Positions 23,745 to 55,882 of a stretch of 64,000 nucleotides of DNA are shown piece by piece. The translations under genes and the position numbers were made by a program. The number at the start of each line of letters is the position of its first letter. Position 1 is the stretch's first letter. This DNA is from Pelagicoccus sp. SDUM812003 (GTDB taxonomy: Bacteria; Verrucomicrobiota; Verrucomicrobiia; Opitutales; Opitutaceae). Under the pieces are notes generated by a model. It did not search any database and was not told the origin of the DNA. It saw only the letters and a program-made list of their open reading frames with translations. The stretch spans positions 62,001 to 126,000 of the forward strand of contig NZ_JARXHY010000016.1 in the NCBI RefSeq assembly GCF_031127815.1. Reading direction: 5' to 3'.

Positions 23745-24044
23745 ATGGACTCCGCAAATCTCAGATCCGACGGCAACGCCACTGAAAAAGTACTCACCGT
23801 ACAGAATCAGATGGGTATCCACGCCCGGCCGGCCGCAATGATCGTGCGTGTGACCAATCGCTTCACTTCGGAAGTGTTTTTCGAAAAGGACGACGAACAG
23901 GTGAACGGCAAATCAATCATGGGACTCATGATGCTGGCCGCCGGCAAGGGCTCCAAGATCAAGGCCATCGCCAATGGACCGGACGCCACCGACGTGCTCA
24001 CCGAGCTGGAAAACCTCTTCGCCAGCAAGTTCGACGAAAAGTAG
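23745..24044 (+). CDS. ptsH: HPr-family phosphocarrier protein
   Basis: 99 residues with the phospho-acceptor histidine in GIH26ARPAA and a regulatory-type serine in NGKS57IMGLMML. There is a roughly 11-residue N-terminal extension relative to common HPr. The serine context suggests HPr kinase control, as in the reduced, regulatory PTS of many Gram-negative bacteria. No PTS permease or EI gene is in the window, so it may serve regulation rather than sugar import. Confidence 0.88.
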   Translation: MDSANLRSDGNATEKVLTVQNQMGIHARPAAMIVRVTNRFTSEVFFEKDDEQVNGKSIMGLMMLAAGKGSKIKAIANGPDATDVLTELENLFASKFDEK

Positions 24045-24453: not shown

Positions 24454-25245
24454 ATGAAAGAGCCAATCGCTTCTCCCCAAAGCGGCTCGCGAAGAACCAG
24501 AGTCGCCGTTATCGGCGGCATCGCCTCCATCATGGTGTTTGCCGCTTGTAGCATCAGCTACGAAAGCTATTTCCGTCCCCCTCAAATCCCCGGAGCGAGT
24601 TTCGAAGGCATAGGGAGCTGCGAAGAGTGTCACGAGGAGATCGTGAAGGAATTCGATTCCGCCACCCATTCCAAGCTCATGGCCGACGGGAACCACGCAG
24701 TCGGAGTCGGCTGCGAGGCCTGCCACGGACCGGGCAGCATTCACAACGAATCCGGCGGCGAACTCGGCACCATCCACAATCCAAAGGCCGACCCCGAAAC
24801 CTGCTACCAGTGCCACTTGGACGTGAAAGGCTCCTTCAACCTCGCCCACGCCCACCCCATCGGAGACAACATCACCTGCAACGATTGTCACGATCCGCAC
24901 AAGGGCAACGCGGTCCAGGGTGGCGGCGTCGCCATGATGGGAGAGGCGGAAACCTGCCTCCAGTGCCACCAGGCGCAGGCCGGGCCTTTCGTCTTCGAGC
25001 ACGAGGCTACGCGGGATGGCTGCACGGTCTGCCATTCGCCGCACGGCTCGCCGAGCGAGAAGCTGCTCAAGACCAACAACCAGATGCTCTGCCTGCAGTG
25101 CCACTTCCAAACGCAGACGGCTCCTGACGAGATCCTGATCGGAGGGCGCAATCACGCCTCCTTTGTTAGCCGCGGCACCTGTTGGACCGCTGGCTGCCAC
25201 GAATCGGTACACGGCTCGCACGTGAACTCCTCACTCAGGTACTAA
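24454..25245 (+). CDS. DmsE/MtrA-like periplasmic multiheme cytochrome c (octaheme)
   Basis: 263 residues. A basic start, hydrophobic segment and cysteine (VFAAC32) suggest a lipoprotein or anchored signal. Seven CXXCH motifs begin at residues 56, 87, 117, 142, 168, 190 and 213, and an eighth heme-type motif has wider spacing, C243WTAGCH. The tail VHGSHVNSSLRY and the GPFVFEHE and CHSPHGSP segments match DmsE/MtrA/PioA decaheme proteins, but this one is shorter by two hemes. Family members pass electrons through an outer-membrane barrel. The next gene, 23 bp on with its own AAGGAG site, encodes such a barrel. Confidence 0.88.
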   Translation: MKEPIASPQSGSRRTRVAVIGGIASIMVFAACSISYESYFRPPQIPGASFEGIGSCEECHEEIVKEFDSATHSKLMADGNHAVGVGCEACHGPGSIHNESGGELGTIHNPKADPETCYQCHLDVKGSFNLAHAHPIGDNITCNDCHDPHKGNAVQGGGVAMMGEAETCLQCHQAQAGPFVFEHEATRDGCTVCHSPHGSPSEKLLKTNNQMLCLQCHFQTQTAPDEILIGGRNHASFVSRGTCWTAGCHESVHGSHVNSSLRY

Positions 25246-25268
25246 GCTCATCAGCACAAGGAGTCATC

Positions 25269-27356
25269 ATGAAATTCCCAATCGACCGCGACTTCCCTCG
25301 AAAGTCGGCCTGCGTGGGCGCCCTCGTCGCCCTCCCCTTCGCTCTCTCCAGCCTCCACGCCCAAGAGGAGGATCGCCTGCCTGACTCGGGCAACTATATC
25401 GATATCACCCTCGGCCATGCTTCCCACGACGGGAACGAAGCGGCCTACCTCGCTCGACACCCCATCAAAAAGCACGCCTTCGGCGGCATCGAACGCTTCC
25501 AGTACTCCGGGTACATCGGACGCTACACCGAGTTTAAAACGGAAGGCCGGGCCATGTTCGACAACAACGACTACCTTTTCGGAGTCGAGTTTTTGAACGA
25601 GGACGTCGGCTACTTCAAATTCCGCTGGGAAGAGTATCGGATCTTCTACGACGGCAGCGGAAAGTACTTCCCGGGCAGCGACACCTGGATCGACATCTAC
25701 GACGACGAGCTCGCTCTCGATCGAGGAAAACTGCAGATCGAAGGCGGACTCTTCCTCGATGGCGGGCTCGACCTCGACTTCTCCTACACTCGCCTCACCC
25801 GAGAAGGGCTGAAGTCCTCATCGGCGCTCGCCGACACCACCCTCACCGGCGAATACGGCACCCGAAACATCGTGCCCACCTTTCTCGACATCGACGAGAG
25901 CCGAGACATCTTCGAAGTGGGCGCCAGCAAGAAGATCGACAAAACCAAACTCGCTCTCTCGCTGCGCGCCGAGCAGAGCGACGTGGACGACGCACGCAAG
26001 ATCACACGTCGACCTGGAGAGTCCAGCTTCCGGCGAATCACCCACCGCGAAATCTACGATACGGATCTCTTCAGCGCTCGCTTCTCCACCATCACCGAAG
26101 TGGACGAGAAGAACACCTTCACCACCGGCATCGCCTACACCGAGATCGACGTGAATACCACCGGATCGCGCATCTACGGCGACGATTTCGATGTGCCGTT
26201 CGACGTCGACTACCAAGGGCAGCGCCGCGACCACGGCTGGATCGACCTCATGGCGGAAAGCCAGATCGACCAATGGCTGCTCAACGCCAACTGGGTCAAC
26301 CGCCCCGCCGAACACTGGAAGGCGATATACGCTATCCGTCTCGAAGAAATGAATACCGGCATCGTCAGCGACTTCACCGAAACGGAGTTTTCAACCTCGA
26401 GCAATACCTTCGAAGTCCACGACATGGAGCTGCAAGCCGAGCGGGACTGGAAGGACGCCGCGGCCTCCGCCGAGCTTATCTACACGGGCGTCGAGAATGT
26501 GGTCTACAATGGCTCCATCCTCTACACTAGCGGCGATGGAGATTTCCTCGAAGAGGAGTTCGATGCGGAAAGCGGCAGCCAACTGCTCGAACGCTTGTCA
26601 AACACCGAAAGGGACGTGCTCAAGCTCGCCGTCGGAGCGAAAATCTACTCCGCCGCGGCCGGGCGATGGTACATCCAGTACTACCACAAGGATCGAGACA
26701 ACAAATACAACCACATCATCGATCCGACCGAACCCGATGGCGGAGACCGATTTCCCGCCTACACCGACGGGCAGGACTTCACCACCGATGATATAAACGT
26801 CTCCGTGCGCTACAAAGGCCCTGGCGGCTTGAGCGGAATGACGCGGGTCGACTATCAAAAGTCCACCATCGACTCGCATGGACAAGGGCTGGAATGGGCT
26901 CACTCCTACGATCGAAAAGCGCTGGTCCTCAGCCAGTCCTTAACCTACGCCTTCGAAAACCTCTACCTGCAAGCCACAGCCGTCTACGCGGACGACAGCC
27001 GAGAGTCTCCCGTCAGCACCATCGGCGGCGGTGTGGCGGATACGGTGATCGTGCTCGATGGCGATTTCTTCAACGCCAACCTCGGCGCCCACTGGGGTAT
27101 CGACGAGGACTCGAACGCCGGCGTCACCCTCTTCTACAACCGCACCGACAACTACGTCGACAATAGCGCATTCGCCCAGCCCTACGGAGACGATCTGCGC
27201 GAGATCGGTCTGACCGCCACCTATACCCGAAAGCTGACCGACAACGCCCAGCTCACCCTTCGCTACGCCTACTACGACAGCGAAGACATGGCCTCCGGCG
27301 GCTTCAACGACTACGACGCCCAGATTCTCTACAGCTCGATTCGCTACCGCTTTTAG
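25269..27356 (+). CDS. MtrB/PioB-like outer-membrane beta-barrel
   Basis: 695 residues from the ATG at 25269, which follows AAGGAG and begins a signal peptide cleaved near LHA31-Q. The mature protein is an alternating aromatic/charged beta-strand pattern rich in Asp, Tyr and Thr, ending in the barrel C-terminal signature YSSIRYRF. This fits the MtrB/PioB decaheme-associated family, whose barrels hold an MtrA-type cytochrome and let electrons cross the outer membrane. The mature chain has no cysteine, so the CxxC of Shewanella MtrB is absent, as in PioB-like members. The octaheme gene upstream is the expected partner. Confidence 0.85.
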   Translation: MKFPIDRDFPRKSACVGALVALPFALSSLHAQEEDRLPDSGNYIDITLGHASHDGNEAAYLARHPIKKHAFGGIERFQYSGYIGRYTEFKTEGRAMFDNNDYLFGVEFLNEDVGYFKFRWEEYRIFYDGSGKYFPGSDTWIDIYDDELALDRGKLQIEGGLFLDGGLDLDFSYTRLTREGLKSSSALADTTLTGEYGTRNIVPTFLDIDESRDIFEVGASKKIDKTKLALSLRAEQSDVDDARKITRRPGESSFRRITHREIYDTDLFSARFSTITEVDEKNTFTTGIAYTEIDVNTTGSRIYGDDFDVPFDVDYQGQRRDHGWIDLMAESQIDQWLLNANWVNRPAEHWKAIYAIRLEEMNTGIVSDFTETEFSTSSNTFEVHDMELQAERDWKDAAASAELIYTGVENVVYNGSILYTSGDGDFLEEEFDAESGSQLLERLSNTERDVLKLAVGAKIYSAAAGRWYIQYYHKDRDNKYNHIIDPTEPDGGDRFPAYTDGQDFTTDDINVSVRYKGPGGLSGMTRVDYQKSTIDSHGQGLEWAHSYDRKALVLSQSLTYAFENLYLQATAVYADDSRESPVSTIGGGVADTVIVLDGDFFNANLGAHWGIDEDSNAGVTLFYNRTDNYVDNSAFAQPYGDDLREIGLTATYTRKLTDNAQLTLRYAYYDSEDMASGGFNDYDAQILYSSIRYRF

Positions 27357-27486
27357 CGCCATGACAAATCGAAGCCCTCGCCGCAAGCAACGGAGTATTC
27401 AATTCCTCATACAAAACAAGCCAGCGCCCCTCTGTTGAGCGGGGCGTTGACCCGCCACTCTCGCTTAAAACGAACTAAAATTCCTT

Positions 27487-27822
27487 ATGAAACGAACACC
27501 TTACTTCATGCTTTCGCTCGCCGCCATGATCGGCAGTTCCCTCGTAGCTGACGAATTCGACGTCGTCGCCGCTTGGGAAAAGGACTGCCAAAAATGCCAC
27601 GCCGAAGACGGAAGCGGCCTCACCAAAAAAGGCCGCAAGCTCCGGCTGAAGGACTACCGGGATCCGGAAGTCCAGGCCAAGATGAGCGACGAGGAAATCG
27701 TCAAAGCCATCAACGAAGGCGTCAAAGAGGATGGCGAATTCACTATGAACGCCTACGGAGAAGACTACACCGAAGAGGAAATCAACGCCTTCCTCGCCTA
27801 CGTGCGCTCCTTAGCGAAGTAG
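27487..27822 (+). CDS. Small monoheme cytochrome c
   Basis: 111 residues with a signal peptide (cleavage near VA-DEF) and one heme site, C34QKCH. M87 in EFTMNAYG is the likely second axial ligand. The helix pattern MSDEEIVKAINEGV and TEEEINAFLAYVRSL is typical of class I cytochromes c. It lies between the barrel gene and the NapC-like gene, so a periplasmic shuttle between inner-membrane and outer-membrane parts is likely. Confidence 0.88.
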   Translation: MKRTPYFMLSLAAMIGSSLVADEFDVVAAWEKDCQKCHAEDGSGLTKKGRKLRLKDYRDPEVQAKMSDEEIVKAINEGVKEDGEFTMNAYGEDYTEEEINAFLAYVRSLAK

Positions 27823-28006
27823 CGTCACGCCGCCCGACTTCTGCCGCTGGTCTGCCGCTGAGAAAGGCGGCAGCCCCCCCCTTCGCGACATTGCCCCACG
27901 GCCGTCCCGAAATCCATTTCAACAACAAGAGTTATCATACCCCAACCCACATCGCCTCGCGCTCTCCAACGAAGAGTCTTAAGCGAACCGTATCCAAAGA
28001 TCGAAT

Positions 28007-29506
28007 ATGCCTCGCGAACCGAACGACGAAAAAGAGCACGGACTTCTCCTGCACTTCCGCAATTGGCTCAGTCTCGCAGGCCTCATCGTCGTCGGAGGCA
28101 GCTTCTTCGCCTTCCTACTGCTGATCGGCTTCGATCTCGTCACCGGTGGATCGAATCCCTACGTCGGCATTCTCAGCTACATCGTCGCCCCGCTGTTCTT
28201 CGGCTTCGGCTCCCTGCTCGCCTTTGTGGGCTGGCTCTGGAGCTGGCGAAAACGTCGCGACCGCGGCGTCACGCTCACCTTCGATCTCTCGCGGCTCAAG
28301 GACCGACGGATCTTCGGAGCATTCATCGGCGCAGCCATGGTCTTCATGTTCGCCACCAGCATGGGCAGCTACCAGACCTACACCTACACCAGCTCCAACC
28401 AATTCTGCGGCGTGCTCTGCCACTCCGTCATGGAGCCGCAATACGACGCCTATCCCGACGATGTACACGCCATGCTCAATTGCGTGGACTGCCACGTCGG
28501 CGAAGGAGCGAAGGGAGCCTTCAAAGCGAAGTGGCACGGCATCTATAAGCTGTATTCACTCGTCTTCGACAAATACCCAAAACCGCTTCGAGCCGACCCT
28601 CACTACCTGCCGACCACCCAAGAGAGCTGCAACAAGTGCCACGAAGACGGGCCCGATTTCAAGGACGTCGCCAAAACCTACCACCACTACCTCAGCGACG
28701 ACGAGAACACGCCTTTCTCCGTCACGCTCCGACTTAAGCTGGGACCGGAGAGATCAGGAAACTACGAAACGAACGGCATCCATTGGCACGCCAAGGACGA
28801 CAACCAGATCGAGTTCACCACTGCCTTGGAAAATCCCGATGTCATCCCTTGGATCAAAGTCACCAAGTCCGACGGCAGCGTGACCGAATACACCTTCACC
28901 CCGGACGAGGACGCGGAAAACGTGCCCGACCTCAACCACGTCAGCGATCCTAAAACCATGGATTGCATCGACTGCCACAGCCGCCCCGCCCACGGCTTCA
29001 AAAAGCCAAACGACCTCGTCGAGCGAGCCCTCCATCGCGGCCAGCTTTCCAACCGGATTCCCGAGATCAAATACATCGTCGCTCGCGCCCTCGATCCCGA
29101 CTACGAAACAAGCGAAGAAGCCCACGCGTCGATTACGAAGATGCTGCGCGACGAGCTGGAAGGCCCCGCTCCCGCAGTCGAGCAAGCCATCGATACCGTG
29201 AATGACTTCTACGCCAACAACGTCTTCCCGCATATGAACGCCGACTGGCGGGCCTATCCGGACTACATCGGACACAAGGACACGCTCGGCTGCTTCCGAT
29301 GCCACGACGACAAGCACAGCACCTTCGACGGCTCCAAGACCCTTTCCGCGAAAAACTGCCACACCTGCCACGATGTCATTTCTCAAGGCGAACCGGGCAA
29401 CATGACCTTCGCCAATTCGCCCGAAACCGAATTCGACCACCCAGACGGCTCCTACCTCGGCTTCACCTGCGCCGAATGCCACACCGGCGGACTGCAGCTC
29501 GAGTAG
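28007..29506 (+). CDS. NapC/NirT-type membrane-anchored heptaheme cytochrome c
   Basis: 499 residues. About three membrane segments (roughly 18-44, 53-80, 101-122) precede the heme part. Heme motifs: C134GVLCH (three residues between cysteines), then CXXCH at 159, 208, 320, 429, 451 and 488. FCGVLCHSVMEPQYDAY and CVDCHVGEGAKG are typical of the NapC/NrfH/NirT fold that takes electrons from quinol; the C-terminal heme region is an extension. It is the inner-membrane candidate for the conduit formed with the three preceding genes. Direction of electron flow (out or in) cannot be told from sequence. Confidence 0.87.
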   Translation: MPREPNDEKEHGLLLHFRNWLSLAGLIVVGGSFFAFLLLIGFDLVTGGSNPYVGILSYIVAPLFFGFGSLLAFVGWLWSWRKRRDRGVTLTFDLSRLKDRRIFGAFIGAAMVFMFATSMGSYQTYTYTSSNQFCGVLCHSVMEPQYDAYPDDVHAMLNCVDCHVGEGAKGAFKAKWHGIYKLYSLVFDKYPKPLRADPHYLPTTQESCNKCHEDGPDFKDVAKTYHHYLSDDENTPFSVTLRLKLGPERSGNYETNGIHWHAKDDNQIEFTTALENPDVIPWIKVTKSDGSVTEYTFTPDEDAENVPDLNHVSDPKTMDCIDCHSRPAHGFKKPNDLVERALHRGQLSNRIPEIKYIVARALDPDYETSEEAHASITKMLRDELEGPAPAVEQAIDTVNDFYANNVFPHMNADWRAYPDYIGHKDTLGCFRCHDDKHSTFDGSKTLSAKNCHTCHDVISQGEPGNMTFANSPETEFDHPDGSYLGFTCAECHTGGLQLE

Positions 29507-29638: not shown

Positions 29639-30436
29639 TCAGGCGAGACCGTAAAACGCCTTCGCAACGGTGCTCGTCTTTTCCGCCAGCTCTTCTCCCG
29701 TCACCCCAAACAGCTCCGCGCAATACGCCGCGGTATGCGCCAGGAACGCGGGCTCGTTGGGTTTGCCACGATGCGGCATGGGAGCGAGGTACGGAGCGTC
29801 GGTTTCGATCATCAGCCGATCCAGGCCCTGCAGTTTGGCGGCGTCGCGAACGGCTTCCGCATTCTTGAAAGTGATGATGCCGGTGAAGCTCCCGAAGCCG
29901 CCGCGATCAAGCAGCTGCTTCATCTCGCCCGGACCTTCGGAAAAGCAGTGAAAAACCACCTTGGTCCAGTCCACCCCGCTGCGGTCGATCACCTCCACGC
30001 TCTCCGCGAACGCTCCGCGCGAGTGGATGACCACCGGGCAGTCGAGACGTCTGGCGATCTCGAGTTGAGCCTCGAAAGCGGCGACTTGGGCAGCGAAAAC
30101 CGTTTTCGCTGCAGCCTCGTCCTTGGGAAGGTGAAAGCGATCGAGACCGATTTCGCCTAGCGCGACCGGCTTTAGCTCCCGCCCCCAGAACGGCTCGATT
30201 TGCGGGATCGATTTCTCCCAGCCCGCATCCACCGAGCAGGGATGGATCCCCACCGTGTAGTCGACCTGGGAATGAGTTTCCGCCATCTCGGCGTAGAGCG
30301 TCCAGTCGTCCGTATCCGTGCCCACCGTCACCAGACGCGACAAGCCGGCCTCCGCCGCAGCGCTCAGAGCCTCCTCCAATCGACCCTTGCGAGCGAAACT
30401 TTCCAGATGGGTGTGCGTATCGATGATGCCCGACAT
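29639..30436 (-). CDS. TatD-family metal-dependent hydrolase
   Basis: 265 residues of the TatD DNase family. Metal ligands appear in IIDTH8TH10LE, GEIGLD, VVIHSRG, FHCFSEG and ETDAPYLAP, all in the expected order. E. coli TatD has 3'-5' exonuclease activity; many paralogues (YcfH, YjjV) are less well defined. The PHRGKPNEPAFL segment is also characteristic. It is divergent from trxB. Confidence 0.93.
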   Translation of the reverse strand: MSGIIDTHTHLESFARKGRLEEALSAAAEAGLSRLVTVGTDTDDWTLYAEMAETHSQVDYTVGIHPCSVDAGWEKSIPQIEPFWGRELKPVALGEIGLDRFHLPKDEAAAKTVFAAQVAAFEAQLEIARRLDCPVVIHSRGAFAESVEVIDRSGVDWTKVVFHCFSEGPGEMKQLLDRGGFGSFTGIITFKNAEAVRDAAKLQGLDRLMIETDAPYLAPMPHRGKPNEPAFLAHTAAYCAELFGVTGEELAEKTSTVAKAFYGLA

Positions 30437-55806: not shown

Positions 55807-55882
55807 GGGTCGATAGCTCAATCGGTAGAGCAGTTGCCTTTTAAGCAATTGGTTCTGGGTTCGAGTCCCAGTCGGCCTACCA
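55807..55882 (+). tRNA. tRNA-Lys (UUU)
   Basis: A 76-nt cloverleaf with encoded CCA. The acceptor GGGTCGA pairs with TCGGCCT (with a terminal G-U pair); the D arm has AGCTCAATCGGTAGAGC; the anticodon loop CTTTTAA gives TTT; the T arm is CTGGGTTCGAGTCCCAG. Discriminator base A is normal for lysine. A terminator follows immediately. Confidence 0.97.

Follow-up and report, generated by a model that had tools for sequence, protein, structure and literature searches.

How might a bacterium of the Verrucomicrobiota pass respiratory electrons from its quinone pool to acceptors outside the cell? The question is raised by four consecutive genes on the plus strand, here called A, B, C and D in that order, at positions 24454-29506 of a stretch of 64,000 nucleotides (the window) from Pelagicoccus sp. 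SDUM812003 (contig NZ_JARXHY010000016.1, positions 62,001 to 126,000). An initial annotation, made from the sequence alone, had read them as a conduit composed of an octaheme cytochrome, an outer-membrane barrel, a monoheme cytochrome and a heptaheme quinol dehydrogenase. The coordinates proved exact, and the heme motifs bear out the octaheme, the monoheme and the heptaheme protein. Genes A-D probably constitute a self-contained outward conduit for respiration to extracellular acceptors. The annotation also presented such a conduit as a novelty in a verrucomicrobial setting. This applies to the link with the quinol dehydrogenase ImcH; a verrucomicrobial conduit of a porin and an eight-heme cytochrome was already published in 2017 (He et al., 2017; PMC5615132) and is not new. 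What is new is the co-occurrence of the barrel with ImcH and the all-or-none presence of the cassette at one site in the genus. A description of an ImcH-linked verrucomicrobial cassette was not found in the literature searched, which consisted chiefly of the available text of open-access papers. The four genes are the following.

24454 to 25245, plus strand: gene A, octaheme c-type cytochrome (263 amino acids, eight heme motifs), MtrA-related and predicted to sit in the barrel
25269 to 27356, plus strand: gene B, outer-membrane beta-barrel (695 amino acids from the ATG) with an MtrB-like fold in the model
27487 to 27822, plus strand: gene C, small monoheme class-I cytochrome c (111 amino acids, one CXXCH), predicted periplasmic shuttle
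28007 to 29506, plus strand: gene D, ImcH-type quinol dehydrogenase, a membrane heptaheme protein (499 amino acids, CGVLCH plus six CXXCH)

The four gene products

The protein encoded by gene A carries seven CXXCH motifs followed by a terminal CX4CH (CWTAGCH). A sequence search of solved structures places chain A of the Mtr complex (6r2q) nearest to it (expectation value (E) 3.6e-27 over two stretches, phmmer); this chain carries another molecule name in its file. It also matches the GSU2203 decaheme profile (E 3.5e-46, 157.9 bits, under the cut-off of 325) and the DmsE profile TIGR03508 (E 1.1e-41, 143.1 bits, under the cut-off of 192.2). Judged by these matches, gene A shares descent with MtrA, as had been annotated. 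With eight motifs and a score below the cut-off, it falls outside the decaheme DmsE/MtrA family TIGR03508, the ten-heme definition of which is taken from the family name. When 20 of the 21 sequences were aligned (that of the window among them, L054 omitted), all eight heme motifs and eight further histidines proved invariant, a number of histidines sufficient for bis-His ligation. The same holds for C32, a cysteine of the lipobox type that follows a hydrophobic leader. Of the 58 octaheme proteins compared, 50 fit a loose lipobox pattern, as do 22 of 46 decaheme-like proteins; gene A may be lipid-anchored on the periplasmic side of the outer membrane.

To place gene A among its relatives, a genome collection was queried with the octaheme alignment, as the barrel alignment has no conserved stretch, and the best 80 of 287 relatives were kept. 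Octaheme genes are present in 35 of these loci, of which 33 are verrucomicrobial, one is labelled 'bacterium' (L090) and one belongs to the Omnitrophota (L109). Proteins with nine or ten motifs occupy 43 of the other 45 loci (46 genes), the rest being L105 (truncated by a contig end, five motifs) and L111 (22 motifs), both excluded from the tree and from the octaheme and decaheme counts. The 58 octaheme genes represent 57 different ones, as L057 and L082 are identical in octaheme sequence. The series of motifs ends in CX4CH in 56 of the 58 proteins; in L086 and L097 all eight sites are CXXCH. In the available text of a 2013 study, an Opitutus 'MtrA' was described with just seven to eight canonical sites, the eighth being taken as TxxCH (PMC3669403); the present alignment gives CX4CH as the eighth motif instead. 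In a quick-method tree of 104 proteins, the label of a seven-plus-one octaheme needs two changes, compared to 34.7 in shuffles. These octahemes are therefore almost a single group, separate from the decahemes, in line with the distinct type that had been suggested.

For gene B, an AlphaFold2 model made with 21 aligned sequences, one of them from the window, has a mean predicted local distance difference test score (pLDDT) of 85.5 and shows 26 strands by manual count. MtrB is a barrel of 26 strands as well. In a Foldseek search with this model, MtrB (6r2q_B) ranks first, with E 1.3e-14 and template modelling (TM) scores of 0.66/0.70, at 11% sequence identity to gene B; the remaining 49 of the best 50 among 820 matches have TM scores of at most 0.47 and are TonB-dependent receptors by inspection. 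An alternative, longer frame of gene B starts from TTG at 25182.

Gene C encodes a class-I cytochrome c according to Pfam and NCBIfam profiles. M87 is invariant in the 20 aligned sequences (window included) and is the likely distal heme ligand. A leader is recognised by eye, and no stretch of the protein exceeds the hydropathy threshold.

The gene D protein has hydropathy peaks at residues 23-41, 59-77 and 102-120, corresponding to three N-terminal membrane helices, which are followed by CX3CH (CGVLCH) at 134 and then by six CXXCH. ImcH is defined by three N-terminal membrane helices, an adjoining CX3CH and six CX2CH in the available text of PMC6295460. In addition, gene D aligns over its full length with a protein from a Geobacter metagenome-assembled genome (MAG; 30% identity, 507 columns), which we infer from its layout to be the ImcH of that strain. 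Because of the published helix and motif layout together with this homology, gene D is classified by sequence as an ImcH-type quinol dehydrogenase, which replaces the NapC type of the initial annotation; menaquinol oxidation is predicted. One ImcH in Verrucomicrobia is listed in the table of PMC6295460, so ImcH as such is not new to the phylum. However, in the available text of that paper imcH has no mtrAB or mtoAB beside it, whereas here it adjoins an outer-membrane conduit.

The cytochrome domains of A, C and D score well above the profile cut-offs. The genes are separated by 23 (A-B), 130 (B-C) and 184 bases (C-D), and a scan for promoters and terminators gave no more matches than expected by chance.

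Joint occurrence in related genomes

If the four genes form one route, they are expected to be kept together. Gene B has matches in 30 of 95 related genomes, its own included. Among the 90 genomes that were searched for both proteins (barrel at E <= 1e-3, ImcH at E <= 1e-50), 25 have barrel and ImcH, four have the barrel alone, none has ImcH alone and 61 have neither (Fisher p 2e-18, genomes counted without regard to kinship). B immediately follows A at 54 of the 58 octaheme genes; the exceptions are L091 and L095, which lie near contig ends, L089, where the barrel is spread over three frames, and L097, with a barrel-like open reading frame (ORF) outside the model. In 20 wide loci from the 29 other barrel-bearing genomes, which were chosen by their barrel, A and B are adjacent without exception. 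The complete order A-B-C-D on one strand is found at 15 of the 58 octaheme genes. Adjacency, gene order and the association with ImcH together support the earlier claim of a co-conserved set leading from the quinone pool to the outside. At L050, homologues of A, B, C and D are all present in the order C-D-A-B, and at L055 C-D is on the opposite strand. These arrangements suggest that A-B is one module and C-D another.

Within the genus, the cluster occupies a variable site that is bordered by two genes outside the system, both named by inspection.

23745 to 24044, plus strand: HPr-like gene, left flank of the variable site
29639 to 30436, minus strand: TatD-like gene, right flank of the variable site

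Eight genomes of the genus were compared at this site. Four of them carry A-D in full, flanked by the HPr-like and the TatD-like gene, and in the other four the distance from one flanking gene to the other, taken from match end to match end, is 31, 90, 91 and 93 bases. Genomes with the cluster are scattered over a tree built from six flanking proteins, where the trait takes four changes, at least three of which are supported by starred branches. Genes A-D therefore appear to have been gained or lost together, and loss or exchange of the whole cassette at one site would be the simplest reading. With four genomes that have the cassette and four that lack it at the same place, the genus offers a natural experiment.

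Proposed route, direction and terminal acceptor

In the proposed mechanism, the ImcH-type protein D would oxidise menaquinol at the inner membrane and pass the electrons along its seven hemes. The monoheme cytochrome C would then ferry them across the periplasm, and the octaheme A, threaded into the 26-strand barrel B, would conduct them through the outer membrane. Finally, the terminal hemes of A would directly reduce a soluble or diffusible acceptor, such as humic quinones, chelated Fe(III) or flavin-like shuttles; direct reduction by A is proposed because the cluster has no surface cytochrome. According to the available text of PMC12307469, ImcH of Geobacter is used with acceptors of more than about -0.1 V, and Fe(III) as well as humic quinones of higher potential would fall in this range. 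A more detailed version can be put forward tentatively. In that version, a verrucomicrobial quinol-to-outside cassette of about 5 kb would run from ImcH over a monoheme cytochrome with His/Met ligation to an octaheme that is lipid-anchored and set in a 26-strand barrel, the outermost CX4CH heme would act as the terminal reductase and make a surface cytochrome unneeded, the cassette would be gained or lost as a whole at one chromosomal site, and another branch would have its PSCyt1 shuttle fused to the porin.

The same parts could also work in the opposite direction, as in the Mto and Pio systems. Fe(II) or another outside donor would then deliver electrons to A-B, from where they would reach the quinone pool through C and D. 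The Mto cluster of Sideroxydans lithotrophicus ES-1 combines the same four roles, i.e., a multiheme insert, a porin, a soluble monoheme cytochrome and an inner-membrane quinol oxidoreductase, and its proposed direction is inward in the available text of PMC4412085 and PMC13390432; for this reason the inward direction is retained as a rival. PioAB and MtoAB are moreover described without an extracellular cytochrome in the text available from PMC6344600. However, Mto has a decaheme MtoA, a tetraheme CymA/ImoA and a second monoheme cytochrome, PmcA (PMC4412085, PMC13390432), whereas the inner-membrane partner here is ImcH. ImcH is reported only from Fe(III)-reducing bacteria in the available text of PMC6295460, where its role in quinol oxidation is itself inferred. 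The linker differs too, as C has an invariant Met and MtoD is bis-His (PMC4412085). Taken together, an inward conduit is quite improbable, and outward transfer is the preferred direction.

A number of results weigh against the outward conduit, and those on the barrel come first. The gene B protein has no sequence match in Pfam, NCBIfam or the PDB, and the MtrB/PioB profile PF11854 matches neither this protein nor anything else in its own genome. In the control scan the profile gave 310 and 376 bits for the barrels of L115 and L144 and 40 bits for that of L129, and it also missed L099 and L131, barrels whose partners have 9-10 hemes. When gene B was compared by local hhalign with barrels that neighbour 9-10-heme proteins, five groups in all, the values were 93.2-98.4% (proteobacterial MtrB 97.0%, two other groups 98.4%, the remaining two 97.9% and 93.2%), and the TonB-receptor control gave 97.0%. 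Because the control reaches the value of the proteobacterial MtrB group, the profile-profile comparison gives no verdict on the descent of B, and fold and context are relied on instead. Profile-profile proof of descent from MtrB, convincing in a global-type run, was thus undone by this control in the local runs, and plain membership of the MtrB/PioB family was rejected on the PF11854 profile. The earlier label 'MtrB/PioB-like' holds for the modelled fold, with its 26 strands and 6r2q_B as the top match, and for the gene context, and not for family membership as tested. Besides, the predicted single-chain structure of gene A is unusable (mean pLDDT 40.5). ImcH was not found at E <= 1e-50 in four of the 29 barrel-bearing genomes (G015, G036, G039, G044), and a D gene lies within the examined stretch, which is short in some cases, for just 21 of the 58 octaheme loci, so that A-B also occurs without linked D. 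A last point, a candidate surface cytochrome elsewhere in the genome, is discussed below.

A and C could instead be periplasmic cytochromes that lie beside an ordinary barrel, for instance for detoxification or electron storage; the barrel without a named family and the unusable model of A speak for this reading. The adjacency of A and B, a 26-strand model that is nearest to MtrB, and the joint presence and absence with ImcH all argue for a conduit, which makes this explanation very improbable.

Another possibility is that A-B feeds a surface enzyme or cytochrome encoded elsewhere, so that the four genes are not the complete route. In Shewanella, DmsEF feeds DmsAB. The initial annotation had stated that a surface cytochrome is absent. 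This is correct for the four-gene cluster; for the genome it holds only within the families searched, which were PF22113, PF14522 and TIGR03507. Nothing in the genome exceeds the cut-off of the OmcA/MtrC family TIGR03507, the best score being 20.2 of 209.3 bits. A 741-amino-acid protein with eight hemes (L060:8609-10834) is the single protein of this genome that passes the cut-off of the MtrC/MtrF domain PF22113 (39.6 bits, cut-off 30), and it has a lipobox by eye; a surface partner is therefore conceivable. However, its last part also matches TPR repeats. In relatives, proteins of 566-624 amino acids with 7-9 hemes are encoded just upstream of A at L078:6253-7953, L079:5947-7821, L081:6085-7842, L085:6104-7822 and L088:6142-7842. 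The one of L088 matches the MtrC/MtrF domain with 40.1 bits, and these proteins may be counterparts of the cytochrome that He et al. (2017) place outside the cell. L043 likewise encodes a nine-heme protein of 792 amino acids with an MtrC/MtrF domain (56.8 bits). On the other hand, the loci L040-L042 of the same genus (20 kb each) have no further protein with at least three heme motifs. On balance, dependence on a partner encoded elsewhere is unlikely, and genes A-D are read further as a self-contained outward conduit.

The proteins examined behind most of the matches in this genome are Nrf-like, NapB-like or, by inspection, ActA-like, or have no assigned role. Genes for NrfA and NrfH score over their cut-offs (L063, L064), which fits an anaerobically respiring organism. 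A second NrfA-like protein (L063/L064) has 711 amino acids and five CXXCH, with its best cytochrome c552 stretch at residues 405-688, and L062:6609-7946 encodes a protein of 445 amino acids with ten CXXCH and one CX4CH.

Known conduits and variants in relatives

The closest precedent is the porin-cytochrome complex of He et al. (2017). In the available text of that paper, a novel porin gene lies beside genes for eight-heme periplasmic cytochromes in six verrucomicrobial MAGs, homologues are reported in Opitutus terrae PB90-1 and others, and humic substances are proposed as acceptor (PMC5615132). The complex was not homologous to the Geobacter or Shewanella conduits by its authors' search. It is described as a porin with at least 20 strands, whose gene clusters with that for an eight-heme cytochrome in the same phylum, which agrees with the 26 strands, eight motifs and adjacency found here. 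There are also differences, as judged by description. The section on the complex names no inner-membrane partner, apart from 'ET in IM' in a legend, and no monoheme linker, and in several of its clusters there is a gene for an extracellular multiheme protein, which has no counterpart here. The complex is mentioned again in He et al. (2019; PMC6344600), and Verrucomicrobia are not named in the main text of two later surveys as available (PMC11475568, PMC7399161). The cassette described here would supply a likely inner half for the 2017 proposal. If it does support respiration of humic substances or iron, more of the carbon in anoxic soils and humic waters would pass through respiration and less through fermentation and methane, following the argument in the available text of PMC5615132. 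As one cluster of 5 kb, it is of a convenient size for expression in a laboratory host.

Other known conduits resemble the cluster in part. MtrCAB of Shewanella (6r2q) is matched by A in sequence (MtrA) and by B in fold (MtrB), but it has ten hemes compared to eight here, and MtrC has no counterpart in the cluster. OmbB-OmaB-OmcB of Geobacter likewise pairs a periplasmic eight-heme cytochrome with a porin-like protein, but includes a 12-heme outer-membrane cytochrome; this likeness is by description, from the available text of PMC4245776. Lastly, a four-gene conduit of Methylobacter consists of a porin, an MtrA-family cytochrome, a periplasmic monoheme and an inner-membrane cytochrome, with a scattered distribution, in the text available from PMC13322032. 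It differs in its decaheme cytochrome, its MtrB/PioB porin and a monoheme inner-membrane protein rather than ImcH.

Among the relatives, none of the 46 genes with 9-10 motifs has a neighbour that matches the B model. Barrels with one CXXCH near the N-terminus occur in seven verrucomicrobial loci (L086, L087, L092, L093, L094, L096, L098) and in the locus labelled 'bacterium' (L090). Both Pfam-scanned barrels of this type (L086, L098) have a PSCyt1 domain above the cut-off, which suggests a monoheme cytochrome fused to the porin. Proteins of about 750 amino acids with 13 hemes are encoded beside the conduit at L046:13610-15862, L055:11863-14103 and L049:5049-7283. Those of L046 and L055 were considered as surface cytochromes and ruled out by a C-terminal cytochrome b561 domain; by sequence, their layout is that of the quinol oxidases CbcL/MtrH/MtoC.

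In a Luteolibacter MAG (L097:7941-14190), an octaheme gene with eight CXXCH is followed by the barrel-like gene outside the barrel model, by ImcH between two monoheme genes and by a tetraheme gene, a set predicted to fill the same roles with other parts. An Omnitrophota MAG (L109:7806-15781) has A, B, a nine-heme gene and ImcH on one strand, and in an Acidimicrobiia MAG (L126:6469-10982) an ImcH-like gene directly precedes a decaheme gene and then a barrel-like ORF. The A-B pair is present as a tandem duplicate in L068 and L083. In the window itself, the sole Rfam match at gathering scores is a tRNA gene at 55807-55879.

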